NCBI GenBank assembly: GCA_001898165.1
Contig: MKTD01000062.1
Coordinates: forward strand, 1 to 46,319
Direction of reading: 5' to 3'
Length of the DNA stretch: 46,319 nucleotides
Source of the DNA: Bacteroidia bacterium 43-41
Lineage (GTDB): Bacteria; Bacteroidota; Bacteroidia; Bacteroidales; Dysgonomonadaceae
Made by a program: the position numbers and the translations under genes. Positions 9,657-46,107 of this stretch are shown one piece after another. The notes under the pieces were generated by a model that did not search any database, was not told where the DNA came from, and was given only the letters and a program-made list of their open reading frames with translations. How positions within the stretch are numbered: position 1 is the stretch's first letter; every line of letters starts with the position of its first letter.

Positions 9657-9756
9657 TTTTTTAGATTGTTTGATTTCAACGTTGAAAGTTCAAAGTTTTC
9701 ATACTTTAAGACCGTCTTTGTTCTTCACTCTTGGCTCTTGCCTCTTGCCTCTTCGT

Positions 9757-32712: not shown

Positions 32713-32740
32713 AACGGCTAACTTTTAAGTTGGCCGTTTG
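32713..32740 (+). terminator. Probable terminator after pdxA
   Basis: AACGGCTAACTT and AAGTTGGCCGTT form a 12-bp stem with one G-T pair, followed by TTG. The loop is only two bases, so the top pairs probably open. Confidence 0.6.
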
Positions 32741-32821
32741 TGATTATCCTGCATGAATAGTGAGAAACAACAAAACAATGTTAATAATTCGGAAAATCAC
32801 GTTAAATAATTAAGATCCCTC

Positions 32822-32870
32822 TTGACTTTTGTAATTTCGTCACTACATTTGTGAGTGATTATTCACTTAC
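32822..32870 (+). promoter_or_regulatory. Promoter with TetR-type operator, copy A
   Basis: TTG (32822-32824), 19 bases, TACATTTG (32844-32851), then the dyad GTGAGTGATT/ATTCACTTAC (32851-32870) covering the expected transcription start. The same layout recurs at 35420-35468. It precedes the 33143-35408 operon with a leader of nearly 290 bases. Confidence 0.7.
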
Positions 32871-33142
32871 TTTCTGAAGTGTAAATTATTTGAATGTTGT
32901 CTTCGTATTCATCTTGCGTTGGGATCTCTAAGAATAAAAAAAGTAGTTTTGCTTCTAACAGATGTACCCGTTTTCTTGAATTAGCCCTGAAAAAGTTGGT
33001 AATATGTAGAAACTACCGATCGTTTCCAAGATAAATGTGAATTTAATAATCTAGGTTCCACGTATATTCGATTACGGCTAAATTTATGAGTAGTTGACAC
33101 ATGCGAAAGTTGAGTTAATAATAATATTACAACAGCATTTCT
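32871..33142 (+). other. Long untranslated leader before the thioredoxin-fold gene
   Basis: No gene is seen. The AT-rich leader contains CATGCGAAAGTTGA (about 33098-33111), the exact complement of the left tip of the palindromic repeat copy 1, possibly a decayed fragment. It also shares a TTTCCAAGATA string with that repeat. Confidence 0.35.
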
Positions 33143-33580
33143 ATGTCGTATAAAGTCTTTCAACTAGAACCCTGGCATTTCATTGTCGCTACAGTGATGT
33201 TTTACATCCTTACCGTGATTATTTCCGAGGTCAGGATGAAACAAATGCCTTTGGCATCAGCGGAAACAAATTTAATTGAACTGAATGGAATAAAATTTGA
33301 AGACGATAACATTCGTTTTGTTTTTTTCCATGACAGCAACTCGATACTTTGCAGGAAAATGAGATTCAATATTGAACAGCTCGTTGATAATGAACCTGAT
33401 ATAATTTATTTTTACTCGATAGACATAAGCAAATACCCAAAAGCTTTTTACGAACACAATGTATCCGGCATTCCTAATATATTGGTTTTTAAGGGAAATA
33501 GAGAAATAAAAAGAATTATGGGAATAGTGTCTTATGAAAATTTAAAGATGATTGTGCAAACATTAAAAGAAGACGTATGA
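33143..33580 (+). CDS. Membrane-anchored thioredoxin-fold protein with SxxC site
   Basis: 145 aa. One N-terminal membrane helix (about 12-29, FIVATVMFYILTVIISEV) is followed by a thioredoxin-like domain. The active-site loop reads FFHDSNSILCRKM: compared with the usual WCxxCKKM the first cysteine is Ser, leaving SILC. The cis-proline segment SGIPNILVFKGNREI is intact. A lone resolving Cys would not support normal dithiol exchange, so it may bind partners or act with another thiol. It is the first gene of an operator-preceded three-gene unit; its stop overlaps the next start (ATGA). Confidence 0.75.
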   Translation: MSYKVFQLEPWHFIVATVMFYILTVIISEVRMKQMPLASAETNLIELNGIKFEDDNIRFVFFHDSNSILCRKMRFNIEQLVDNEPDIIYFYSIDISKYPKAFYEHNVSGIPNILVFKGNREIKRIMGIVSYENLKMIVQTLKEDV

Positions 33581-33813
33581 AGCGAGCATATGCGTTTTTA
33601 AAAGAAAATTTATTTGCCCTTTTATTTACGGTGTCAGGAATAATAATAGCCTACATTTACTGGGTTAACTGGGGTATGTATTACGGCACGCTCCCTCTCT
33701 CTTCGGAGTGTTGGGTAAATTGTACCTATGGGGGATTAATTGGCGGATTATTGGGGAGCAATCTTGCACGACACAATGAGCAGTTGCAAAAACAGAAAAA
33801 TAAGCATGCATGA
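33577..33813 (+). CDS. Small DUF6132-like membrane protein
   Basis: 78 aa with two membrane helices (LFALLFTVSGIIIAYIYWV and YGGLIGGLLGSN). Between them GTLPLSSECWVNCTYGG aligns by eye with the GTCPITSNP..YG loop of DUF6132 proteins, but the usual cysteine after GT is Leu and two cysteines appear later instead. The C-terminus is basic and cytoplasmic. Both ends overlap neighbours by ATGA, so it is co-translated with the thioredoxin-fold protein and the glycosyltransferase. Function unknown. Confidence 0.65.
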   Translation: MKRAYAFLKENLFALLFTVSGIIIAYIYWVNWGMYYGTLPLSSECWVNCTYGGLIGGLLGSNLARHNEQLQKQKNKHA

Positions 33814-35408
33814 AGAATAAATATATCTATTTAATCTGGTTTATCGCCCTGTTACCCACGATGATTTTACGCGATTTCACACCCAAAAATGAGTTGCGTT
33901 ACTTAAGCATTGTCGATGAAGCACTTCGCAATGGGAATATCTTCACTTTTACCAACCAGAGTGAAATTTACGCGGATAAACCTCCTCTCCATTTCTGGCT
34001 GATGATGATCGGGAAGATAATTTTGGGTGAACACCGGATGTGGTATTATTCACTGTTATCGATTATCCCGGCATTTGTTGTACTGATAACCCTGTCGAAA
34101 TGGATCCGCAGAGAAGACGAGAAAAGCGGCCTGATTAAGAATAGTGGAATAACAACCTCGCTGATGCTGATGACTACAGGGTTATTTACCGGTGTCACCC
34201 TGGTCGTCCGTATGGATATGCTGATGAACATGTTCATTGTTTTATCCTTGTACACTTTTTATAAAATGTTTCAGGGAGAAGGCCGGAAGCGAGACGAATG
34301 GCTGTTTCCGGTGTTCGTTTTTCTGGCACTTTTTTCAAAAGGGCCATTGGGCATTTTGATTCCTTTTGTTTCAACCACCCTGTTTTTACTTTATCGTAAG
34401 AGATTATCCAATTTTAAAAAGTACTGGGGATGGAAGAGCCTTCTGATTATTTTGACAGGCTGCATTATCTGGTTCGCGGGAGTCTATCTTGAAGGCGGAA
34501 ACGAATACATCAATGACCTGTTGGTCCACCAGACTATAGGCCGGGGAATCAACTCTTTTCACCATAAAGAACCTTTTTACTACTATGCGATTTCTATTTG
34601 GTATTCATTGGCACCCTGGTCACTATTAACAATAGGGCTCATTGTTGCCGGTTTATATAAAAAAAAGATAAACAGTGTGTCGGAGAAATTTTTTGTTACA
34701 ATAATCCTATCTACACTGGCGTTGTTGTCCCTAATCAGCTCTAAACTGGAAGTCTATTCACTACCGGTAATTCCCTTTATCATAGGCCTCTCCGTCTTAC
34801 TTATTAAAAAATTCAACCTGCAAGGCCGATGGATCAGATTAACTATAGCCATTCCAGCAGTGGCGTTGGCCTTTTCACTTCCGGTTGTTTTTTATCTAAA
34901 CGTTGCCAAAGGGATGCAATATCTGGGTAATTGGCTCATTTATGCAGGAGCAGGGATATGCACGCTCACCGGACTATTCTCCTTTTATCTTATGTATCTG
35001 AAAAGAGATACCTACAAATCCATAAATACCCTGGCATTGGGGCTCTTGTTGACCGTCTTCATCATCGGATGGTCTATGCCGCAACTGAACAGCCAGCTTG
35101 GATGGAGAAATCTGTGCGAAAAAGCGGGAGAATTATCGAAGGAGCGTCAAATTCCGGACTATTGGGTGTATAACATCTCACGTGCCGAAAACATGGATGT
35201 TTACCTCGGAAAAGACATTATAAAAAAAAGCAGGGAGGATATCCTCAAAGGGCCGCTAAAAAACAGGCTACTCATACTACAGTCCAAAGATATAAAAAAA
35301 GATCCGGAGATACGCTCTGCCGTACAGAACGGAGAACAATACAGGATAGGAAGGTACAGGATTGTGGTCTTTTACAACGTTAATAAACCGGAAAGTTGCG
35401 TTAAATAA
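33810..35408 (+). CDS. ArnT/PMT-like (GT39/GT83) integral membrane glycosyltransferase
   Basis: 532 aa. About 11-12 membrane helices in the first 430 residues, then a soluble C-terminal domain. The first periplasmic loop has FTPKNELRYLSIVDEAL and YADKPPLHFWLMM, matching the (D)E..RY and KPPLYYWL motifs of ArnT-type transferases that use polyprenyl-phosphate-linked sugars. The Asp normally preceding the Glu is Asn here, which I believe is usual in Bacteroidota homologues. It probably adds a sugar to lipid A or another envelope lipid from the periplasmic side. It is the last gene of the operator A unit. Confidence 0.85.
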   Translation: MKNKYIYLIWFIALLPTMILRDFTPKNELRYLSIVDEALRNGNIFTFTNQSEIYADKPPLHFWLMMIGKIILGEHRMWYYSLLSIIPAFVVLITLSKWIRREDEKSGLIKNSGITTSLMLMTTGLFTGVTLVVRMDMLMNMFIVLSLYTFYKMFQGEGRKRDEWLFPVFVFLALFSKGPLGILIPFVSTTLFLLYRKRLSNFKKYWGWKSLLIILTGCIIWFAGVYLEGGNEYINDLLVHQTIGRGINSFHHKEPFYYYAISIWYSLAPWSLLTIGLIVAGLYKKKINSVSEKFFVTIILSTLALLSLISSKLEVYSLPVIPFIIGLSVLLIKKFNLQGRWIRLTIAIPAVALAFSLPVVFYLNVAKGMQYLGNWLIYAGAGICTLTGLFSFYLMYLKRDTYKSINTLALGLLLTVFIIGWSMPQLNSQLGWRNLCEKAGELSKERQIPDYWVYNISRAENMDVYLGKDIIKKSREDILKGPLKNRLLILQSKDIKKDPEIRSAVQNGEQYRIGRYRIVVFYNVNKPESCVK

Positions 35409-35419
35409 TTCAAAATATG

Positions 35420-35468
35420 TTGCATTTTTTAATTTCGATTGTATCTTTGTGAGTGATTGCTCACTTAC
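35420..35468 (+). promoter_or_regulatory. Promoter with TetR-type operator, copy B
   Basis: TTG (35420-35422), 19 bases, TATCTTTG (35442-35449), then dyad GTGAGTGATT/GCTCACTTAC (35449-35468). Spacer, -7 box and operator align base for base with copy A, including the shared TAATTTCG in the spacer. It precedes the operon that contains the tetR gene. Confidence 0.75.
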
Positions 35469-35543
35469 TTATTACGAAATAAATTAATCGACCGTCATTT
35501 TATGCTTGAAATCAGGAGAATAAGAAAAATAATCGGAATTTTA

Positions 35544-35563
35544 GTTAGTGGTTATTCACTTAC
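35544..35563 (+). promoter_or_regulatory. TetR-type operator, copy C
   Basis: GTTAGTGGTT/ATTCACTTAC dyad, 95 bases downstream of copy B and within a tandem duplication. The adjoining -7 position reads AATTTTAG, so this copy has probably lost promoter function while keeping the binding site. Confidence 0.6.
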
Positions 35564-35604: not shown

Positions 35605-35955
35605 ATGTTGAAAATGGAGAAAAATAATCGGGATATGATTGAAAGGAAAGCATTCTTTATTTCCGGGGAGAGACTCACCAGTATTGAGCACAAGAAAAAG
35701 ATACTGGTCATTTTTGATATGAGCCAGGATGTGGTCGTTGGTGTAGAGACCGTTGATATAGAGGACAAATTCGTTTCAACCGAAGAGCTGTTGCTCTTTC
35801 TTCAAAAAAAATATATTCGCGTAATTTATGTTTCGGAAATAGACAGTAAAACGGAAAATTTATTTTTAGACTCCGGCCTGGTCGTGAAAACGTCCTTGAC
35901 GATAAAGAACGACAAACTGTTTAATTCGCTCTATTTATCTCCTCCGATTTTCTGA
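35605..35955 (+). CDS. Hypothetical 116-aa protein, possibly NifX/NifB-C-like fold
   Basis: 116 aa; alternative starts at 35614 and 35635. No signal peptide. An alternating beta/alpha pattern ends ELLLFLQKKYIRVIYVSEIDSKTENLFLDSGLVVKT. This resembles the part of dinitrogenase-cofactor-binding (NifX/NifB C-terminal) folds in which a helix precedes a V-I strand and a final glycine-containing turn. Resemblance is weak and no Fe-S or cofactor ligands are obvious. It is the first gene after operators B and C; its first codons lie in the duplicated segment. Confidence 0.6.
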   Translation: MLKMEKNNRDMIERKAFFISGERLTSIEHKKKILVIFDMSQDVVVGVETVDIEDKFVSTEELLLFLQKKYIRVIYVSEIDSKTENLFLDSGLVVKTSLTIKNDKLFNSLYLSPPIF

Positions 35956-36036: not shown

Positions 36037-36681
36037 ATGAACACTACGATCTTACAAAGTACGCTTCTGGCATGGGTTGTCTTCTTCGGTACAAATCTAT
36101 CTGCCCAAACCGAGGAGTGGAAAACCGCACTCAGTAAAAATGGCAAAATAACGACGAAGTACAATTTTTCGTCGCGGATAAATGAAGACAACGATAAAGT
36201 CCCTGTAGTAAAAACTATTACAACAACAACAGAAAATATCGGTATTGACAACTGTATCGCATTAATGAAAAATATTGCAAAGCATAAAGATTTCCGCGGA
36301 GAAAAGTCAAGTAAGCTCATCAACAAGATCTCAGAAAATGAATGGTCCATCTATTATTATAGCGATGGAACGCTGCTTACCCCGGCAGTGGATGGTTCCT
36401 ACCGAATGATTTTTGTAGAAGACAGGCAAAATAAAACGGCCACGTTTACTCTTACGGCAGACCCGACATTGATTGAAAAGACGGACATGGTCCGTTTGAC
36501 TTATGCAAAAGAGATCTATTCATTTAAAGAGGTAGGAGGGAATCAATTGGAAATAACCATCAAAACTACGGTTTCGCCGGGATTTAAAGTACCGTCTATG
36601 ATGTTGAAAAAGGCATTTCCCAAAAAATCTCTCGAAAATATGGAAAAATTCCTTGAAGCGGCAAAAAAGGAAATACCTTGA
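36037..36681 (+). CDS. Secreted START-like lipid-binding domain protein
   Basis: 214 aa. Signal peptide cut after LSAQ (about residue 24). The mature part begins EEWKTALSKNGKITTKYNF and continues with TTTTENIGIDNCIALMKNIAKHKDF, then ENEWSIYYYSDGTLLTPAVDGSYRMIF. This follows the order of START domains (W..KNGI..Y, a helix, then the wet YY..PWPV-type strand), and it ends in a long amphipathic helix. START domains bind single lipids in a helix-grip cavity. A periplasmic lipid carrier for the exporter encoded downstream is inferred. The stop is close to the tetR gene start. Confidence 0.6.
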   Translation: MNTTILQSTLLAWVVFFGTNLSAQTEEWKTALSKNGKITTKYNFSSRINEDNDKVPVVKTITTTTENIGIDNCIALMKNIAKHKDFRGEKSSKLINKISENEWSIYYYSDGTLLTPAVDGSYRMIFVEDRQNKTATFTLTADPTLIEKTDMVRLTYAKEIYSFKEVGGNQLEITIKTTVSPGFKVPSMMLKKAFPKKSLENMEKFLEAAKKEIP

Positions 36682-36740: not shown

Positions 36741-37346
36741 ATGATGATAGTACCAATGAACATTAAACCGAGGCAGTTGGAAATTATTGAAGCAACCGGA
36801 AAGCTGCTTACAACATCCGGTATAAACGGCCTGACAATAAAAAACCTGGCCTATGAAATGAATTTCTCGGAGAGCGCTCTTTACAGGCATTTTTCCAGCA
36901 AAGAAGAGATCATTGTCACTCTGTTGAACTATTTAAATGAAAATGTAAACAAAATCTTTAAAGAGTCTCCCATATCGGGTGTTTTTGAAAAAGATTTTAC
37001 TGCTCTTTTCAAGGAACTGACGTACTACTTTAAAGAGAATCCGTTCTATGTTGTCGTAGTATTTTCAGAAGGCCTTATAAATGAGAGTGCCCGGATAGGT
37101 GAAAAGATTATACAATTAATGGATAGCCTGACAAAACACGCCCAGGCAATTATAAAGGAAGGGCAGGAGAAGGATCTGATAACCCGTTCGCTTACGTCGG
37201 AACAGGTCGTGCAAATCATCATCCCCGCATTCCGGCATCAAATGTTCAGATGGAAGATAAGCAATTTTGAATCGGACATAACACAGAGCATTGAATCCTT
37301 GTCCGGTTCATTGTTGGAACTTCTGAAGAGACGCTCAGAACAGTAA
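36741..37346 (+). CDS. TetR/AcrR family transcriptional regulator
   Basis: About 201 aa from ATG 36741; ATG 36744 and 36756 are also possible, and AAGAAGGA ends right before 36741, favouring 36744 or 36756. The DNA-binding domain is clear: IIEATGKLLTTSGINGLTIKNLAYEMNFSESALYRHFSSKEEII. The ligand domain is all-helical (about 75-195) with FKENPFYVVVVFSEGLINE. It probably binds the dyads at 32851, 35449 and 35544 and so controls its own operon and the glycosyltransferase operon. Inducer unknown. Confidence 0.9.
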   Translation: MMIVPMNIKPRQLEIIEATGKLLTTSGINGLTIKNLAYEMNFSESALYRHFSSKEEIIVTLLNYLNENVNKIFKESPISGVFEKDFTALFKELTYYFKENPFYVVVVFSEGLINESARIGEKIIQLMDSLTKHAQAIIKEGQEKDLITRSLTSEQVVQIIIPAFRHQMFRWKISNFESDITQSIESLSGSLLELLKRRSEQ

Positions 37347-37384: not shown

Positions 37385-38665
37385 ATGAACTTAAAAACAT
37401 TCCTCTTATTGGTGGGATTGATCGGACTAAACAGCATGCTTGTACCTGCCCAGGTCATCACACTGAATGAGATTCAAAAGATGGCGGAAGCAAATTACCC
37501 GGCCATAGCGCGATACGACATCATTGAGAAAACAAAGGATTTCAGCATCGCGAATGCTAACCGGGGGTTTCTGCCGCAGGGCACAGTGAGTGCCCTGGCT
37601 ACCTGGCAGTCAGACGTAACCCATATCGATATTGATTTGCCGGAAGGGATGCCGCCCCTCGAAATTCCCGTTCCCGACCAGGATCAATACCGGGTGGTAG
37701 CCGAACTGAACCAGCTTATATGGGACGGAGGCAATATCTCAGCCCAGAAAAAAAGTCTGAAAGCCGGTGCGGAAGTAGAAAAGAAGCAGTTGGACACAGA
37801 GGTTTACGCCCTGAGGGAGCGGGTAAATAATCTCTATTTCGGCATTCTGCTGATGAAGGGAAACCTGCAGCAACATGAGATCCTGGAAAATGAACTGCAG
37901 CGCAACTACGATAACGTGCAAACCTATGTGCAAAACGGCGTAGCTAACGAGGTTGACCTGAGTACAGTAAAGGTAGAACAGCTGAAAGCAGGACAACAAC
38001 GGATTCAGTTGGAATCTACGTTAGATGCTTATATACGGATGTTATCCGTGCTCACCGGAGAACCGCTCGAAAAGAATACGACATTTGTAAAACCAAATCC
38101 CGAAGTAGAATTGATATCTCCCATCATCAATCGTCCCGAGTTAAAGATGTTCACCGCACAGGAGGAGGCCGCTGAATCGCAAAAATCGCTCCTGAAAGCC
38201 AAAAATATGCCGAAGTTGTCCGCCTTTGCACAGGGAGGTTACGGAAAACCGGGACTCAACATGTTCGACACCAAATTTTCCCCCTACTTTTTGGGAGGGA
38301 TCCGCCTCTCATGGAACATTGGCAATCTATATACATACAGTAACGATAAGAAGAAGATCGATCTGCAAAAACAGTCGGTGAACACGCAAAAGGAGACTTT
38401 CCTGTATAATCTGAAAGTACAGATACCGCAGCAGCAGTTGGAGATTGAAAAATATAAAAAGACCATGCTGGACGATGACGAGATCATACGCCATCAAACG
38501 CTGATCCGTGAAGCTGCCGAGGTGAAAGTGGAAAACGGCACCCTGACGGTATCCGACCTGATGAAGGAAATCAATGCCGAGGAGGCAGTCAAACAAGCGA
38601 AAACATTGCATGAAATTCAATATCTCATGTCGATCTACTCACTGAAACATACAATAAATCAATAA
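37385..38665 (+). CDS. TolC family outer-membrane channel protein
   Basis: 426 aa. Signal peptide (MNLKTFLLLVGLIGLNSMLVPAQ), then two helical-hairpin repeats (LNEIQKMAEANYPAIARYDII; later KSLLKAKNMPKLSAFAQGGYG) with barrel strands between them. The end of the second repeat reads VENGTLTVSDLMKEINAEEAVKQAK, the TolC tip. It supplies the outer-membrane exit for the ABC exporter encoded next. Between this gene and hlyD lies copy 2 of the palindromic repeat, starting 12 bases after the stop. Confidence 0.9.
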   Translation: MNLKTFLLLVGLIGLNSMLVPAQVITLNEIQKMAEANYPAIARYDIIEKTKDFSIANANRGFLPQGTVSALATWQSDVTHIDIDLPEGMPPLEIPVPDQDQYRVVAELNQLIWDGGNISAQKKSLKAGAEVEKKQLDTEVYALRERVNNLYFGILLMKGNLQQHEILENELQRNYDNVQTYVQNGVANEVDLSTVKVEQLKAGQQRIQLESTLDAYIRMLSVLTGEPLEKNTTFVKPNPEVELISPIINRPELKMFTAQEEAAESQKSLLKAKNMPKLSAFAQGGYGKPGLNMFDTKFSPYFLGGIRLSWNIGNLYTYSNDKKKIDLQKQSVNTQKETFLYNLKVQIPQQQLEIEKYKKTMLDDDEIIRHQTLIREAAEVKVENGTLTVSDLMKEINAEEAVKQAKTLHEIQYLMSIYSLKHTINQ

Positions 38666-38904: not shown

Positions 38905-39801
38905 ATGAAACTATTTAAATTACTAACAACATTATCCGCCTTGCTCCTACTCTTTTCATGCAGCAACGGCAAAGGCGACTATGACGCTACCGGATCGTTT
39001 GAAGCAACGGAAATTATCGTCTCATCACAGGCGAATGGACGCATTTTAGAGCTGGGGCTGAATGAGGGAGATCAGCTGGAACAAGGGCAAGAAGTGGGAC
39101 TCATCGACAGCACCCAGCTCTATCTGCAAAAAATGTCCTTGCTCTCCAACGCGAAAGGTGTCCGTGCCCAGCAGCCCGATATAAAAGCGCAGACGGCAGC
39201 ATTACAGGAGCAAATCAAATCATTGGAGCGGGAAAAAGCACGGTTAGGGAGATTGGTTACCGCCAATGCCGCCAATCAGAAACAGCTGGACGACATTGAC
39301 TCCCAATTGGAGGTTGTGAGGAGGCAGCTATCGGCGCTGACATCCACATTACAAAAAAGCAGTGATAATATTTCCGCACAAAGCTCCACGCTCGATATTC
39401 AGGTCGCACAACTGGAAGATCAACTGGACAAGACCCGTATCGTCAGCCCTATTTCGGGGACCGTACTCAACAGATATGCAGAGGCAGGTGAGCTGGCTAC
39501 CATAGGTACTCCCCTATTCAAAATTGCCGATACCGGAATCCTATTCCTGAGGGCCTACGTGACAAATGATCAGCTGGCACAAATCAAACTGAACGGTGAG
39601 GTGACGGTACGGGTTGACGACGGGCACGGCGGAATGAAGTCATACAAGGGCCGGATCAACTGGATATCCGATAAATCGGAGTTTACTCCCAAGACCATTC
39701 AGACCAAGAATGAACGGGCTAACTTAGTGTATGCGCTGAAAATTGCCGTCCCGAACGATGGTTTCCTGAAGATCGGCATGTATGGAGAGGTTAAGCTTTA
39801 A
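38905..39801 (+). CDS. HlyD/YbhG-like membrane fusion lipoprotein
   Basis: 298 aa. Signal peptide with lipobox LLLFSC (about residue 20). The split lipoyl domain is seen as SSQANGRILELGLNEGDQLEQGQ and RIVSPISGTVLNRYAEAGELATIG. The intervening helical hairpin is rich in Gln/Leu heptads (about 75-170), and a beta-barrel domain with FLRAYVTNDQLAQIKLNGEV follows. Lipid attachment replaces the membrane helix of classical HlyD. It bridges the ABC permeases and TolC. It begins 20 bases after the palindromic repeat and 12 bases before the first ATPase gene. Confidence 0.9.
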   Translation: MKLFKLLTTLSALLLLFSCSNGKGDYDATGSFEATEIIVSSQANGRILELGLNEGDQLEQGQEVGLIDSTQLYLQKMSLLSNAKGVRAQQPDIKAQTAALQEQIKSLEREKARLGRLVTANAANQKQLDDIDSQLEVVRRQLSALTSTLQKSSDNISAQSSTLDIQVAQLEDQLDKTRIVSPISGTVLNRYAEAGELATIGTPLFKIADTGILFLRAYVTNDQLAQIKLNGEVTVRVDDGHGGMKSYKGRINWISDKSEFTPKTIQTKNERANLVYALKIAVPNDGFLKIGMYGEVKL

Positions 39802-39813
39802 TTTGCAACAAAA

Positions 39814-40719
39814 ATGATTGAAGTAAAGGATTTACATAAAAGTTACGGCAGGCAGGGTAAGGTGAATGCCCTGAACAGCATCTCTTTCACAGTAGATGAC
39901 GGGGAGATATTCGGTGTGATTGGTCCGGACGGTGCCGGGAAATCGTCGCTCTTCCGGATCCTGGCATCGCTGATCCTGCCCGATAGCGGTTCGGCAATAA
40001 TGAATGGGCACGACGTGGTGAAGGATTACCGGAAGATACGACAGATTATCGGTTACATGCCGGGCCGGTTCTCACTCTATCAGGATCTGAGCGTGGAGGA
40101 GAACCTGGTATTTTTCGCCACGCTCTTCAATACAACCGTAGAAGAGAACTACCACCTGATCAAAGATATTTACCAACAAATCGAGCCCTTTAAAAAACGG
40201 CGTGCCGGAGCGCTCTCGGGCGGAATGAAACAGAAGCTGGCCCTTAGCTGCGCACTGATCCATAAACCGGAGATCCTGATCCTGGACGAGCCTACCACAG
40301 GGGTAGACCCGGTCTCAAGAAAGGAGTTCTGGGATATGCTGGGGCGGCTGAAGGAGCAAGGGATCACCATTCTGGTGTCGACAGCATATATGGATGAAGC
40401 GAGCCGTTGCGACAGGATAGCGCTGATCCGTGAAGGGGAATTTATTGGAAGCGACACCCCGCAAGGAATCATTGATGATTATCCGGAGATACTCTGGGCA
40501 GTGGAAGGAACCGGCATGTCGGCACTGCTCGGTGAGCTGCGCGCTCACGATAAGGTAAAGAGCAGTTTCGCGTTTGGCGACAAGATTCACATCACCGTAG
40601 AAAAAAGCCTGCAGACGGAAGAGTTGAAGCGATACCTGGCGAACAAAAAATTCAACGACGTACGTATCGCTCCCATAGCACCCACTGTGGAGGATTGTTT
40701 TATGGCATTGACAAGTTAG
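39814..40719 (+). CDS. ABC transporter ATP-binding protein (YbhF N-half-like)
   Basis: 301 aa. Walker A is GPDGAGKSSLF (Asp in place of the usual Asn), signature LSGGMKQKLALS, Walker B ILILDEPTTGVDP, and the H-loop region reads STAYMDEASRCD, with Ala-Tyr where the switch His is usual. A C-terminal extension of about 70 residues follows the nucleotide-binding fold. The same Walker A and switch variants are, from memory, found in the N-terminal half of E. coli YbhF. Here the two halves are separate genes; this one precedes the second ATPase by three bases. Confidence 0.92.
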   Translation: MIEVKDLHKSYGRQGKVNALNSISFTVDDGEIFGVIGPDGAGKSSLFRILASLILPDSGSAIMNGHDVVKDYRKIRQIIGYMPGRFSLYQDLSVEENLVFFATLFNTTVEENYHLIKDIYQQIEPFKKRRAGALSGGMKQKLALSCALIHKPEILILDEPTTGVDPVSRKEFWDMLGRLKEQGITILVSTAYMDEASRCDRIALIREGEFIGSDTPQGIIDDYPEILWAVEGTGMSALLGELRAHDKVKSSFAFGDKIHITVEKSLQTEELKRYLANKKFNDVRIAPIAPTVEDCFMALTS

Positions 40720-40722
40720 GAC

Positions 40723-41466
40723 ATGAGCAAAAAAGTTATCGAGGTATTCAACCTGACAAAAAAGTTTGGCAATTTCACGGCCGTGGACCGCATCTCTTTT
40801 GATGTGAAGGAAGGTGAGATTTTTGGTTTTCTGGGTGCCAACGGCGCGGGCAAAACCACTGCCATGCAAATGCTTTGCGGTATCAGCATGCCGACGGCAG
40901 GAGAAGGAACCGTGGCTGGTTATGATATCATTAAAGAAAATGAACGGATTAAACGGAATATAGGATACATGAGCCAGAAATTCTCCCTGTACGAAGACCT
41001 GAAAGTTTGGGAGAATATCCGCCTGTTCGGGGGTATCTACGGGTTGTCTGATAAAACAATTGCGGAAAAGACGAACGAGTTGTTGAAGCAATTGGATTTT
41101 GAACAGGAGCGCAACACCCTGGTGAAATACCTCCCGTTGGGATGGAAACAAAAACTAGCTTTTTCCGTGGCCATCTTTCATGAGCCCAGGATTGTCTTTC
41201 TGGATGAACCTACGGGCGGAGTTGACCCGGCCATGCGTCGGCAGTTCTGGGAGATGATCTACGATGCGGCCGACCGGGGGATCACCGTTTTTGTAACCAC
41301 GCACTACATGGACGAAGCAGAGTACTGCAACAGGGTATCGATCATGGTGGATGGCCGTATCGACGCCTTGGACACACCGGCCGAGTTGCGCCGCAGGTTC
41401 AGCGCCGACTCCATGGATGAGGTATTTCGACAATTGGCACGTAAAGCAAAGAGGGGGGACCAATGA
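40723..41466 (+). CDS. ABC transporter ATP-binding protein (YbhF C-half-like)
   Basis: 247 aa. Walker A GANGAGKTTAMQ, Walker B IVFLDEPTGGVDP and switch His in VTTHYMDEAEYC are canonical, but the signature loop is YLPLGWKQKLAF rather than LSGGQ. That variant is shared with the C-terminal half of YbhF. Combined with its neighbour it would form a heterodimer with unequal sites. The stop overlaps the start of the first permease gene (41463-41466, ATGA). Confidence 0.92.
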   Translation: MSKKVIEVFNLTKKFGNFTAVDRISFDVKEGEIFGFLGANGAGKTTAMQMLCGISMPTAGEGTVAGYDIIKENERIKRNIGYMSQKFSLYEDLKVWENIRLFGGIYGLSDKTIAEKTNELLKQLDFEQERNTLVKYLPLGWKQKLAFSVAIFHEPRIVFLDEPTGGVDPAMRRQFWEMIYDAADRGITVFVTTHYMDEAEYCNRVSIMVDGRIDALDTPAELRRRFSADSMDEVFRQLARKAKRGDQ

Positions 41467-42569
41467 AACAATTTATAGCATTTGTAAAAAAAGAGTTCCG
41501 GCATATCATCCGGGACAACAGGACCTTGCTGATAATCCTGGGGATGCCTGTAGTGGAGATACTGTTGTTCGGCTTTGCCGTAAACATGGAGGTACAGAAC
41601 ATTCGTGTGGCCGTCTACGACCCCACTCCCGATGCTTTCACCACGGGCATCGCGGAACGGATACGGCAGAACTCCTACTTCAATTATCGGGGAAGCGTTC
41701 AAACCATGGATGAAATGGAAGAGTCGATGCGGAAAGGTGAGCTCGATCTGGCAGTGGTCTTTCAGCAAAACTTCCAGGAGGAGTTGGTGCACTCGGGAGA
41801 AGCTGACGTACAACTGCTTTCCAACAGCTCCGACCCAAACCGGGGCTCCATCGCGGCAACCTATGCCACGGCTATCATAGCGGGATTTCAACGGGAACAA
41901 ACCGACTTGATACAGATACCGTTTCAGATCCAGACTGAGAACCGGATGATCTACAACCCCCTGATGAAATCATCCTATATGTTTGTACCAGGCATCATGG
42001 GGTTGGTACTGATGATCATTTGCACCATCATGACCTCGGTGTCAATCGTCCGTGAAAAAGAGAGAGGGACCATGGAGGTACTCCTCGCATCGCCGTTGAA
42101 ACAGGGAACCATGATCTTCGCAAAGACCATTCCCTATATGGTGATCTCTTTTATCGACTTTGTCATTATTCTGCTTCTGAGCTATTTTGTGCTGGACGTG
42201 CCTGTCAACGGCAGCCTCCTGTTGCTGTTTTTCGTTGCTATCCTCTACATAACCCTGACTTTGTCATATGGATTGACCGTTTCCACACTGGTAGACAAAC
42301 AGGTCAACGCAGTCATCTTCTCGGCTATCACCGCCATGATTCCCGTGCTTATGCTCTCAGGGATGATCTTCCCGGTAGATAACATGCCCGGGGCATTGCA
42401 GGCACTGTCGGCCATAGTACCAGCACGTTGGTTTATTGAAGCCGTGAGAAAAGTGATGATCCAGGGACTGGGAGTGACCATAGCCTGGAAAGAAATGCTC
42501 GTATTGACCGGAATGACGCTGTTCCTGCTGGGAGTTACCATTATGAAGACTAAAAAGAGGCTGGAGTAA
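41463..42569 (+). CDS. ABC-2 type permease (YbhS-like)
   Basis: 368 aa. N-terminal helix (LLIILGMPVVEILLFGFAVN), a periplasmic domain (about 45-170, IRVAVYDPTPDAFTTGIAER), then five helices. The latter include the conserved IMTSVSIVREKERGTMEVLLASPL segment that contacts the ATPase, and a C-terminal IPVLMLSGMIFPVDNMPGAL re-entrant signature. It is paired with the next gene to make the transmembrane part of a YbhFSR-type exporter. Translationally coupled to the second ATPase. Confidence 0.92.
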   Translation: MKQFIAFVKKEFRHIIRDNRTLLIILGMPVVEILLFGFAVNMEVQNIRVAVYDPTPDAFTTGIAERIRQNSYFNYRGSVQTMDEMEESMRKGELDLAVVFQQNFQEELVHSGEADVQLLSNSSDPNRGSIAATYATAIIAGFQREQTDLIQIPFQIQTENRMIYNPLMKSSYMFVPGIMGLVLMIICTIMTSVSIVREKERGTMEVLLASPLKQGTMIFAKTIPYMVISFIDFVIILLLSYFVLDVPVNGSLLLLFFVAILYITLTLSYGLTVSTLVDKQVNAVIFSAITAMIPVLMLSGMIFPVDNMPGALQALSAIVPARWFIEAVRKVMIQGLGVTIAWKEMLVLTGMTLFLLGVTIMKTKKRLE

Positions 42570-42583
42570 AAAATAGAATCCTT

Positions 42584-43720
42584 ATGAAGACATTAAAATT
42601 CCTCATCGAAAAAGAATTTAAACAGATGTTCAGGAATCCGTTGATTCCAAGGCTAATCGTGTTGTTTCCCACCATGGTGTTGCTGGTTTTCCCGTGGGCA
42701 GTAAGTTTTGAGATAAAAAATATCCGTGTGGATGTGGTTGATCACAGCAAAAGCGTCTATTCCAAAAGACTAACCGACAAAATAGCTGCTTCACAGTACT
42801 TTATTTTGCACGACACCCCACCCGATTACAATGCGGCGATGCTGAATATGGAAAACGACGAAACCGATATGATCGTGGAGATACCCGCTTCGTTTGATGT
42901 GGATCTGGTGAAAAGAAGAGAGTCGGGCGTAGGGGTTGCTGTGAACTCGGTAAACGGGACTCAAGGGCTGTTGGGCAGCAATTATGTCATGCAAATCGTG
43001 AACGATTTTTCGTCGGAGCTGCGCGGGGAATTGACGCAGACACTGCCGCCCCAAACACGGGTGTCCTTCATGCGCCTGAAGAAGATGAATATTGTCCCGC
43101 AGTACAAGTACAACCCCGCACTGGATTACAAAAAATTTATGATCCCGGGCTTCATGGTACTGTTGCTTACGATTCTGTGTGGCATTCTGCCGGCACTCAA
43201 TATCGTAATGGAGAAAGAGAACGGCACCATTAACCAGATCAATGTAACGCCGATAAGCAAGATGAACTTCATCCTTGCCAAACTGATACCTTACTGGGCC
43301 GTCGGCCTCGTTGTGATGATCATTTCCATTACCCTGTCGTTTCTGATCTACGGCCTATGGCCCGGCGGAGGAGTGGTGGCAGTGCTTATTTCGTCCATTG
43401 TCTTTATCCTCTCCGTGTCGGGCCTGGGAATCATTATTTCCAACTATTCGGAGACCATGCAACAGGCCAGTTTCCTGGTGATGTTCTTTATCCTGATCCT
43501 GGTCCTGCTGGGAGGCATGTTCACCCCGGTCTCAAGCATGCCCGCATGGGCTCAGGCAATCGCGGCCATCAACCCTTTCAACTACCTGACGACAGCCTTC
43601 CGAATGCTTTACCTGAACGGCAGCAGCCTGGCTGATGTCTCCGGGAACCTGCTGGCATTGGGAGCAATAGCCGTAGTATTGAATGGATGGGCAGTATTCA
43701 GTTATAAAAAGAGAGGATAA
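42584..43720 (+). CDS. ABC-2 type permease (YbhR-like)
   Basis: 378 aa. Same fold as its partner: N-terminal helix (RLIVLFPTMVLLVFPWAVS), periplasmic domain starting IRVDVVDHSKSVYSKRLTDK, coupling segment ALNIVMEKENGTINQINVTPIS, and a C-terminal five-helix bundle with LVLLGGMFTPVSSMPAWAQ. It lies 14 bases after the first permease. Substrate unknown; the YbhFSR class is linked to export of drugs and cations in E. coli, but the lipid-related neighbours here suggest an envelope lipid or lipophilic compound. Confidence 0.92.
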   Translation: MKTLKFLIEKEFKQMFRNPLIPRLIVLFPTMVLLVFPWAVSFEIKNIRVDVVDHSKSVYSKRLTDKIAASQYFILHDTPPDYNAAMLNMENDETDMIVEIPASFDVDLVKRRESGVGVAVNSVNGTQGLLGSNYVMQIVNDFSSELRGELTQTLPPQTRVSFMRLKKMNIVPQYKYNPALDYKKFMIPGFMVLLLTILCGILPALNIVMEKENGTINQINVTPISKMNFILAKLIPYWAVGLVVMIISITLSFLIYGLWPGGGVVAVLISSIVFILSVSGLGIIISNYSETMQQASFLVMFFILILVLLGGMFTPVSSMPAWAQAIAAINPFNYLTTAFRMLYLNGSSLADVSGNLLALGAIAVVLNGWAVFSYKKRG

Positions 43721-43725
43721 CGTGG

Positions 43726-45156
43726 GTGTATAGATCGATACTGACATATTGCGTGTTGCTGGCCCTACCACTTTACGGGCAGGGCAGGACAGACAGCGTT
43801 GCCGAGAAAAACAAGGGCAAGTCTGTCTCTATCAACGTAGGTTTGAACATGGTGATGAGAGGGTTCAACCGGATCATCCTAAAGGATGAATACGCCCAGA
43901 TCAATTTAAGGTCGATGCGGACCAATTTAAAGACATGGCCTGTATGGGATACAAACAGGTTCTCCACAAACTTTATCGGACATCCCTACCACGGGTCAAT
44001 GTATTTCAACAGTGCAAGGACAAACGGGTTGGGGTTTTATCAATCTTCCTCTGTCAGTATGGCCGGCAGCCTGATGTGGGAATACCTGATGGAGACAAAA
44101 CCGCCTTCCCGCAACGACCTGTGGGCGACGACGGCGGGAGGAACAGCTTTGGGAGAGGCCTTGTTCCGGTTTTCCGATCTGATACTGGACAACCGGGCAA
44201 CGGGACTGGAGCGTGTAGGCAGGGAGCTGCTTGCAGGTATTCTGGCTCCTACCCGGCTCATCACCCGGCTTACCACGGGTGAAGCATGGAAAACAGGGCG
44301 ATTCAAAGGGAATATTCTTTATGCATCTCCTTATTCGTTGGAACTGTATTTCGGAGAGACAACGACAGGTGTTGCCGATCGAGACTTGAACCTATGGAGG
44401 TCTGCCATGGGAACCGAACTGCAATATGGCGAACTGTTTGAAACCATTGTCGAAAAGCCATATGAATGGTTCCGGTTAGCGGGAGAAGCCCATATAGGGA
44501 ACGGTTGTTTTCGCCTGTCGCAGGTCAATACCATCGGGCTTCTGTTCAACAAAGAACTGTTTCACAACAACGAAACATGGGTAACGGCGGGCCTGTTCCA
44601 ACACTTCAACTACTACGACCTGAACCGGGTGTTAAATAAAGATGGGGTAATACCGCTTTATCTCTCCGAAGCAGCATCAATAGGCCCGGGAATAATTATC
44701 CAAAAAAGAAAGGACAGAAGAAAAGCCCAAATCGAAGTTCATTTAAGCGGAATTATCCTGGGTGCCGGCACCTCAGATCATTTTAAGCTCGAAGATAGAG
44801 ATTACAATTTCGGGAGCGGGTTCAGCCTGAAGTTATACAGTTCATTGGAGTTCAAACAGAAGCTAACAATCTCTTTATTCTCTGAAAATTATCTCCTTTT
44901 TTCGTGGAAAGGTGTAGATGACTACGAAGTGCTGGAGCATCTGACTATAAATGAAATTGATTTCCTCAATGTACAAGGTGATAAAAGCAGCAGCAGACTC
45001 TGTTTACTGGGATTGAACATGAAATACCGCCTGAACGAAAGGACACATATAATACTCAAAGCCAGACATCTCACCCGGGACACAACGTATAAATATTTCC
45101 CAAACGTGAATTACAGTTCAAATGAACTTTTTTTCGGAATCGGCATGAATGTATGA
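43726..45156 (+). CDS. DUF3943 domain outer-envelope protein
   Basis: 476 aa from GTG 43726, five bases after the permease stop. Signal peptide (YRSILTYCVLLALPLYGQG). The DUF3943 core is FSTNFIGHPYHGSMYFNSAR, then SLMWEYLMETKPPSRNDLWA and GGTALGEALFRFSDLIL. The C-terminal half alternates aromatic and hydrophobic residues in many short strands and ends FGIGMNV, as for an outer-membrane beta barrel. Known only as a domain of unknown function, seen in Bacteroidota and Proteobacteria. Its place between an exporter and a phospholipase suggests an outer-membrane lipid-related role. Confidence 0.82.
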   Translation: MYRSILTYCVLLALPLYGQGRTDSVAEKNKGKSVSINVGLNMVMRGFNRIILKDEYAQINLRSMRTNLKTWPVWDTNRFSTNFIGHPYHGSMYFNSARTNGLGFYQSSSVSMAGSLMWEYLMETKPPSRNDLWATTAGGTALGEALFRFSDLILDNRATGLERVGRELLAGILAPTRLITRLTTGEAWKTGRFKGNILYASPYSLELYFGETTTGVADRDLNLWRSAMGTELQYGELFETIVEKPYEWFRLAGEAHIGNGCFRLSQVNTIGLLFNKELFHNNETWVTAGLFQHFNYYDLNRVLNKDGVIPLYLSEAASIGPGIIIQKRKDRRKAQIEVHLSGIILGAGTSDHFKLEDRDYNFGSGFSLKLYSSLEFKQKLTISLFSENYLLFSWKGVDDYEVLEHLTINEIDFLNVQGDKSSSRLCLLGLNMKYRLNERTHIILKARHLTRDTTYKYFPNVNYSSNELFFGIGMNV

Positions 45157-45212
45157 ATGAATAGTGAAAAATGAAAAATTACGAATTAAAAATTATGAAT
45201 TATGAATTATTT
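45157..45212 (+). repeat. AT-rich short repeat before the phospholipase gene
   Basis: Tandem-like units based on AATTATGAATTA/AATTACGAATTAAA fill the spacer and run into the start codon region. Such degenerate AT repeats are frequent between Bacteroidales genes. No operator is seen. Confidence 0.5.
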
Positions 45213-46107
45213 TCTCTTCGTTACCCTGATGGTGTTTTTATCCATACCTGAGATAAAGGCACAATCAGAAGCCGCTCTCCCCGACACGACCAAGCGATCG
45301 CTTAAGAGCCTGATCGAGGGCATAAAAACCAAAATAGAACATGATAGGCAGGGCCTGGCCATGTCGGAAGATGAGATCATAAGCTATATGGACGGTTTAC
45401 CACCCTTTTCCATCTATAAAGACAACTATTTTATTACCGGCGTTCCACTGAACCGTGAAATTGACGGAGAAACAGCCGATGCCAAATTCCAGATTAGCAT
45501 AAGGCACAGGCTTACCCGGAGCAGATTGCCCTTTAATACATTCCTCTACCTCACCTATACCCAAAAATCGTTTTGGGATATCTACCGGGACTCTGCACCG
45601 TTCAAGGACAGTAATTATAACCCGGGGATTGGATTAGGAAGATATGTCATTGTTAACAACAGGCTTACAGGGGCAATCTTCCTGCAGTTGGAGCATGAGT
45701 CCAACGGCCGCGACAGCCTCGAGTCGAGAGGTACCAACTGGGTTGGCCTCTCCGGAAAATATTTTCTCACCTCCAATCTCGCCGCCAGCTTCAAGATAAC
45801 TGTCCCCTTTATGACAGATAGCAACACCGAAGACCTATACGATTACAGGGGAACCGGCTATTTTACGGCCGATTACAAGACACCGGACAATAAATGGTGG
45901 CTTTCAGGAACTTACAGTCTCAGAAAGAGCGTAAGAGCCATCAATCTCAAATTTACCGCCGGTTATAAAATATCAGAGAGGTTTAATCAATATATTTTCG
46001 GCGAACTATACAGCGGTACCGGCGACAGCATGCTCGAATATAAACGAAAAGATCTACAGCTGCGCGTAGGGATTTGTATCAAGCCCGATTTTTACAATGT
46101 GTTTTAG
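45202..46107 (+). CDS. pldA: Outer-membrane phospholipase A (OMPLA/PldA-like)
   Basis: 301 aa. Signal peptide (MNYFLFVTLMVFLSIPEIKAQ), then a helical stretch and a 12-strand barrel pattern. Family motifs are present: FLYLTYTQKSFWDIYRDSAPF, NPGIGLGRYVI, and the catalytic LEHESNGRDSLESRGTNWV, in which His-x-Ser of HESNG and a downstream Asn (TNW) correspond to the OMPLA triad. The enzyme hydrolyses phospholipids that have reached the outer leaflet. It follows DUF3943 by 45 bases and is the last gene of the TetR operon. Confidence 0.9.
   Translation: MNYFLFVTLMVFLSIPEIKAQSEAALPDTTKRSLKSLIEGIKTKIEHDRQGLAMSEDEIISYMDGLPPFSIYKDNYFITGVPLNREIDGETADAKFQISIRHRLTRSRLPFNTFLYLTYTQKSFWDIYRDSAPFKDSNYNPGIGLGRYVIVNNRLTGAIFLQLEHESNGRDSLESRGTNWVGLSGKYFLTSNLAASFKITVPFMTDSNTEDLYDYRGTGYFTADYKTPDNKWWLSGTYSLRKSVRAINLKFTAGYKISERFNQYIFGELYSGTGDSMLEYKRKDLQLRVGICIKPDFYNVF

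Follow-up and report, generated by a model that had tools for sequence, protein, structure and literature searches.

Two described systems lie close to the subject of this article. In Escherichia coli, the TetR-type regulator CecR (YbiH) is reported to have the cecR-ybhGFSR operon and rhlE as its targets (PMC8249747, PMC6790063; the operon also in PMC7190983), and in Bacteroides fragilis BmeR5 is described as the TetR repressor of bmeABC5 (PMC4790292). Here, we consider a locus in Bacteroidia bacterium 43-41, an anaerobe related to Petrimonas, on a 46,319-nucleotide stretch of contig MKTD01000062.1 that was analyzed as a whole and is called the window below. It carries one gene for a TetR-family regulator (tetR, 36741-37346) and three copies, A, B, and C, of a 20-bp dyad. 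Dyad B lies ahead of the operon that contains tetR and the genes of an exporter, and dyad A ahead of the genes for a thioredoxin-like protein (trx), a 78-residue protein (p78), and an ArnT-like glycosyltransferase (arnT). Judging from sequence comparison, we regard it as very probable that the dyad is the operator of this TetR, which would repress both its own operon and trx-p78-arnT, promoter A being a copy of the promoter at B.

The locus resembles that of CecR in having a TetR regulator encoded inside an HlyD/ABC-2 exporter operon, together with one target outside it. It is unlike CecR in that the operon holds two separate ABC ATPases and a TolC partner, and in that the second target would be trx-p78-arnT and not rhlE. 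No CecR model is among the matches listed for the window TetR, and the likeness is one of operon layout. Similarly, BmeR5 is a Bacteroidales TetR adjacent to a tripartite efflux operon, again a likeness by layout, whereas the exporter of the window is of the ABC-2 type. No description of the operator GTnAGTGA-N4-TCACTnAC was found in the titles and abstract openings that searches of the open PMC literature listed.

The three dyads lie exactly where the original prediction had placed them (Table 1), and C differs from A and B at two positions of its left arm. Searched with the pattern GTNAGTGNTTNNTCACTTAC at up to three mismatches, the window yields just A, B, and C (six matches over both strands); shuffled windows give a mean of 0.24 matches, and none of 100 reaches six. 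The dyad is not scattered at random through the 3.6-Mb genome, which holds three exact places, A, B, and C, and none other without mismatch. Allowing two mismatches adds one site on contig C50 (one mismatch) and one on contig C26 (two mismatches), and the reversed control pattern has two matches per strand at this setting. The looser symmetric pattern GTNAGTGNNNNNNCACTNAC, without mismatch, also finds only A, B, and C. Ten candidate sites besides these three, chosen from the genome pattern matches, were scored by hand with a matrix, and the best were a site at a tetR paralogue on contig C70 (19.4) and sites on contigs C2 (18.0), C50 (17.5), and C55 (17.4). The candidates on C2, C50, and C26 fall within mechanically called reading frames; a further weak target may exist elsewhere in the genome (the other candidates are on contigs C55, C11, C31, C18, C66, and C72).

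Comparison among relatives supports a link between the dyad, this TetR subfamily, and both gene sets. In what follows, handles beginning with G denote genomes (G000 being the window's own), those with L loci, and C with a number after a genome handle a contig. All eight non-window orthologous loci, with a TetR at least 65% identical (G045, G048, G049, G053, G054, G057, G081, and G079, where the TetR is cut by the contig end), have the dyad ahead of the operon, six exactly and two (G053, G079) at one mismatch against GTNAGTGN6CACTNAC. In G043 (TetR 51% identical), an exact dyad is followed by the phospholipase A1 gene (pla1), a homologue of the 116-residue protein gene that stands first behind B, the DUF3943 gene, and tetR. 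Across 101 genomes of the family, exact GTNAGTGANNNNTCACTNAC occurs at 11 sites in 10 genomes (reversed control, two sites) and a tetR homologue (E 1e-10) in 12; the two are found together in eight (Fisher 1.0e-7, or 6.9e-7 when the own genome is omitted).

The association extends to the order. Among 393 Bacteroidales genomes, a TetR match at E 1e-25 is present in 23 (the own genome counted), exact GTNAGYGANNNNTCACTNAC at 24 sites in 21 genomes (four reversed-control sites), and both in 10 (Fisher 1.3e-8). At the 24 order-level loci from other genomes, the 700 bp upstream hold a dyad at up to two mismatches in 20, at up to one in 12, and without mismatch in nine. Taking all 40 loci together (16 from the family, 24 from the order), upstream dyads number 10, 15, and 25 at zero, one, and two mismatches, and 800 shuffles give 0, 0.13%, and 2.1%, respectively. 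Please note that the 700-bp rule overlooks orthologues with two genes between operator and tetR, which were assessed locus by locus. The reciprocal search points the same way: two of the 24 exact sites are A and B themselves, and 14 of the remaining 22 have a subfamily TetR (profile E 1e-40 or better) within about 0.5 kb, G395:C493 among them. Eight of these 14 are at places already given by the protein search (three of them used in the profile), and six are new to it (G155, G172, G198, G222, G227, and G236).

Other TetR genes do not carry the dyad. The own genome has six TetR_N genes, and for four of them, other than the window TetR and its paralogue on C70, no dyad at up to one mismatch was found in the roughly 3 kb around each (best two to four). 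Similarly, seven stretches before other TetR-type genes in relatives, some of which precede the same exporter, contain no dyad under three mismatches; six of these genes were confirmed as TetR_N and that of L122 was assigned by position. The original prediction held that the dyad resembles TetR operators in general; this is to be narrowed, the dyad going with one TetR subfamily in Bacteroidales.

The position of the dyad on its promoter is similarly regular. The published B. fragilis consensus has TAnnTTTG at -7 and TTTG near -33, the -33 part not being seen in Flavobacterium (PMC7366714). Promoters of the form TTG, 19 bases, TAnnTTTG had been predicted along with the dyads; A and B have them, each dyad beginning on the last G, and C is without a promoter element of its own. 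This last G is the start of the dyad in 22 of 26 sites (three in the window, nine in the family, 14 in the order, dyads without an adjacent TetR being omitted), the exceptions being C, G043, L180, and L192, and the TAnnTTTG element itself occurs at 36 of 46312 window positions. The palindrome at the operon that contains tetR overlaps the promoter of that operon, with B on TATCTTTG, a promoter known by sequence only.

How promoter A came to stand before trx-p78-arnT can be read from the relatives. Its leader agrees with that of G048 in 65 of 81 positions and scores 44.5, the highest score among 1000 shuffles being 23. Its likeness to the window's own B leader is at chance level (13.5; shuffle mean, 11.8), and the B leader matches G049 at 59 of 69 positions. 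A is hence a copy of the tetR-operon promoter, with the leader type now in G048. At its upstream edge, GTTAATAAACCGG...GTTAAATAATT, the module is non-coding in G048 and G049, and in the window this stretch encodes the last nine residues of arnT; the last 11 arnT residues are absent from nine of nine homologues aligned (eight from relatives, one being the own genome's second copy). On this alignment evidence, A and B derive from a single promoter module and are not independent sites. This looks like a clear instance of regulon growth, in which duplication of promoter and operator, and not the chance appearance of a site, added a second transcription unit.

The genes behind A have their own history of association. 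In G054, G057, and G081, trx and then p78 lie directly behind tetR, under one single dyad, and behind them a further TetR, different and with an upstream region of its own, precedes the exporter. The place of trx-p78-arnT is taken in G045, G048, and G049 by two genes that, by eye, are terminal-oxidase-like and patatin-like, and none of the nine other genomes of the window's genus gave a trx match at E 1e-8. G057 and G081 have an arnT homologue about 3 kb past pla1 on the same strand, separated from it by an opposite-strand gene, within a cluster of the same layout as that on contig C39 of the own genome (GT2, LAB_N, arnT, epimerase), and in G083 and G058 a C39-like arnT cluster stands directly ahead of the exporter, under another TetR. 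By these layouts, the gene sets are near one another in several arrangements. Taken alone, arnT says little for a shared regulon, because it is widespread in the family (43 of 101 genomes), mostly without a window-type tetR. The prediction that both gene sets are under the same repressor nevertheless gains support from the comparison as a whole, through the dyad-TetR link, the homology of module A, and trx-p78 behind tetR in relatives.

Homologues of trx were also seen in another setting. In G053 and G088 (L121, L123), one that is 60-61% identical, accompanied in G053 by a p78 homologue, comes after genes of outer membrane efflux protein (OEP), HlyD, and RND size that are headed by an unrelated TetR, and G050 (L122) resembles this layout, though trx was missed there by the reading-frame calling. 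A degenerate dyad (two mismatches) lies just ahead of the trx homologue in G088 (L123 flipped, 9693-9712), which may be chance.

From these comparisons, we infer the following scheme. Without inducer, a dimer of the TetR protein would occupy its docking site, the dyad, on the start sites of promoters B and A and block RNA polymerase. At B, it would repress its own operon (the 116-residue and 214-residue proteins, tetR, the TolC/HlyD/ABC-2 exporter, the DUF3943 protein, and phospholipase A1), and at A, through the copied promoter and operator, trx-p78-arnT (33143-35408). Release would come from a ligand, perhaps a substrate of the exporter or an envelope lipid. The stretch behind C agrees with that behind B in 55 of 69 positions (score 35, against 20.5 for the best shuffle), and C is probably a real but accessory operator that arose by tandem duplication of the leader and is likely weaker.

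The transcription layout adds a further element. A hairpin at 32713-32738 (region z -2.0), which the terminator scan did not flag, may form a boundary between pdxA and A. From the arnT stop (35408) to B, the terminator pattern scan found no terminator-like site except the dyad itself, so that transcription from A may continue through B, and the two operons originally proposed may be joined by read-through. In that case, TetR bound at B could serve as a road-block to the A transcript.

Several findings weigh against repression of both operons by this TetR. Besides lacking a promoter, C has a counterpart in G045 and G049, 68 bp behind B, whose left arm is decayed (two mismatches). At up to two mismatches, GTNAGTGNNNNNNCACTNAC is rarer in the genome (55 per strand) than its reversed control (116 per strand), so that only near-exact sites carry weight. 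Exact dyads without such a TetR adjacent make up two of 11 in the family (G036 and G075, the latter within a reading frame) and eight of the 22 non-window sites in the order; conversely, four of the 24 order-level loci (L150, L152, L153, and L155) have no dyad at two mismatches. The 700-bp downstream control also held dyads, in two, three, and 11 loci at zero, one, and two mismatches, and is not clean, because some loci have another dyad behind tetR (L173, L175). In addition, the TTG spacing is 19 in just seven of the 26 sites, 21 in 10, and 18 in one, and eight have none.

Among the rival explanations, two concern which protein acts at which site. The own genome encodes a paralogue 48% identical to the window TetR (G000:C70:19404, ahead of ATP synthase genes), and either this protein or both TetRs might bind these sites, as a shared or cross-regulated regulon. 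The recognition helices are nearly the same (NFSESALYRHF and NFSESAIYRHF), and the paralogue promoter, TATCTTTG, bears a related dyad (two mismatches), so that competition is conceivable. However, that dyad scores 19.4 versus about 30 for A and B, and the ATP-synthase-linked paralogues of three congeners (G045, G048, and G049; 51-52%) have no dyad within 700 bp (best four mismatches), from which it follows that subfamily membership is no guarantee of a site; we consider this explanation unlikely. Somewhat less likely again is that B and C serve autoregulation and A is a non-responsive relic, with trx-p78-arnT constitutive or otherwise controlled. Having been copied inside a 165-bp module, the A dyad could be passive baggage, and in none of the other loci opened does a trx-p78-arnT operon stand behind its own exact dyad. 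Yet both arms of A are identical to the G048 operator arms although the flanks have diverged, with 38 of 48 and 65 of 81 positions matching, its matrix score of 29.6 is on a level with those of the relatives' sites (25.2-30.6), and trx-p78 lies directly behind tetR in three relatives.

Two further readings would take the dyads away from transcriptional repression altogether, and we give them hardly any credence. As RNA hairpins, in terminators or leader structures, they would fit the flag that the terminator pattern scan set on B, but only a loose T-rich tail follows that dyad, and, compared with shuffles, the B and C regions show no better folding (z -0.88, -0.30). In 22 of 26 sites, the dyad also starts within the -7 element, so that only part of it would be transcribed, and this reading was rejected. 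The reading as a chromosome-organizing factor, with many sites and these promoters incidental, comes from the nucleoid occlusion factor SlmA, whose curated NCBIfam model is the nearest one (66.5 bits), which ranks second among the PDB matches (4gct, E 4e-9), and which has a similar half-site, GTGAGT (PMC3116907). The score is nevertheless far under the cut-off of 120 of the model NF007015, the SlmA-type 12-mer GTGAGTACTCAC has no match in the genome at up to one mismatch, and that report gives SlmA about 50 sites, mostly in coding DNA, as against just three near-exact sites here, all intergenic; it was rejected as well.

Repression of both operons by the TetR encoded behind B is hence the reading retained, and the features concerned are collected in Table 1.

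Table 1. Features of the window, with matrix scores from a matrix built from eight relatives only
Feature	Position	Strand	Basis or remark
Promoter-operator-leader module A	32779-32943	+	Homologous to G048 tetR-operon promoter and leader: blastn 165 bp, 79%, E 1.4e-34
Promoter A, -33-type TTG	32822-32824	+	19 bases ahead of TAnnTTTG
Promoter A, -7 element TACATTTG	32844-32851	+	Consensus as in PMC7366714
Putative operator dyad A	32851-32870	+	GTGAGTGATTATTCACTTAC; matrix score 29.6
Thioredoxin-like protein (trx)	33143-33580	+	PF00085 E 1.5e-6
78-residue protein (p78), membrane-like by eye	33577-33813	+	No Pfam or NCBIfam match
ArnT-like PMT_2 glycosyltransferase (arnT)	33810-35408	+	PF13231 E 6.9e-9; NF009784 70.7 bits, far under cut-off 567
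Last nine arnT codons	35379-35405	+	DNA corresponds to non-coding upstream edge of promoter module in G048, G049
Promoter B, -33-type TTG	35420-35422	+	19 bases ahead of TAnnTTTG
Promoter B, -7 element TATCTTTG	35442-35449	+	Sequence match
Putative operator dyad B	35449-35468	+	GTGAGTGATTGCTCACTTAC; matrix score 29.9
Operator-like dyad C	35544-35563	+	GTTAGTGGTTATTCACTTAC; 95 bp behind B; matrix score 24.0; within tandem duplicate of B leader
116-residue protein, first gene behind B	35605-35955	+	No Pfam or NCBIfam match; has homologues in relatives
214-residue protein, secreted-type by eye	36037-36681	+	No Pfam family
TetR-family regulator, proposed repressor	36741-37346	+	PF00440 38 bits; nearest NCBIfam model SlmA, 66.5 bits vs cut-off 120
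TolC-type outer membrane efflux protein	37385-38665	+	PF02321
HlyD-type membrane fusion protein	38905-39801	+	PF13437, PF16576
Two ABC ATPases	39814-40719, 40723-41466	+	PF00005
Two ABC-2 permeases	41463-42569, 42584-43720	+	PF12698
DUF3943 protein	43726-45156	+	PF13084
Phospholipase A1 family protein	45202-46107	+	PF02253

The single tetR gene predicted in the operon behind B is there, its N-terminal TetR_N helix-turn-helix matching above the Pfam cut-off of 24 bits. By this protein, the closest record is a Porphyromonadaceae metagenome-assembled genome (91%), and the closest one assigned to a named genus is Petrimonas sp. IBARAKI (82%; Dysgonomonadaceae, Bacteroidales); the best PDB match is 3vpr (E 5.5e-10). 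A proposed pairing of N versus Q/K in the recognition helix with T versus C in the left arm of the dyad was dropped, being contradicted by G043. The 116-residue protein is kept in all six loci aligned, each with a window-type TetR nearby. A second, unrelated TetR stands ahead of the same ABC-2 exporter in relatives (L119:16126-16914 on the minus strand, L039, L040, L129, and L130), and upstream of it, as read in L119 and L130, a TTTAAAC/GTTTAAT-rich repeat takes the place of the dyad. The paralogue directly ahead of ATP synthase genes is found in four genomes, the own (G000:C70:19369-19982; L044:8570-9192) and G045, G048, and G049 (L045, L046, and L047), and only the own one has a related promoter dyad.

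Beyond the family, 12 order-level loci were opened. OEP-HlyD-RND-size genes follow tetR in nine of them (not in L168, L169, and L177), and eight have a gene for a protein of about 112 residues between dyad and tetR. One example of each was searched against Pfam: the 112-residue protein of L168 is a cupin, and the pump of L166 belongs to the AcrB family, with RND and OEP confirmed. These loci suggest that, in Bacteroidales, the TetR subfamily governs tripartite export, the exporter being of the ABC-2 type in the family of the window. In G462, G122, and G322 (L171, L174, and L175), two TetR genes lie close together before RND-size pump genes, the second being 26-27% identical to the window TetR.

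It is conceivable, and we offer it only tentatively, that a Bacteroidales-wide TetR subfamily kept one operator despite deep divergence and a change of cargo (RND-size pumps in families other than that of the window, which has the ABC-2 exporter with phospholipase A1), that its regulons grow by module copying before new envelope genes, and that a road-block at B on read-through from A makes a two-step switch for export and ArnT-type glycolipid modification. The kind of regulation proposed here is itself conventional. What the locus provides is a specific operator, its place on the promoter exactly defined, for one TetR subfamily in Bacteroidales, and it can serve in predicting export regulons across the order. 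Were the repressor to act as proposed, one signal would govern phospholipase A1, the ArnT-like transferase, and the tripartite exporter in this organism.

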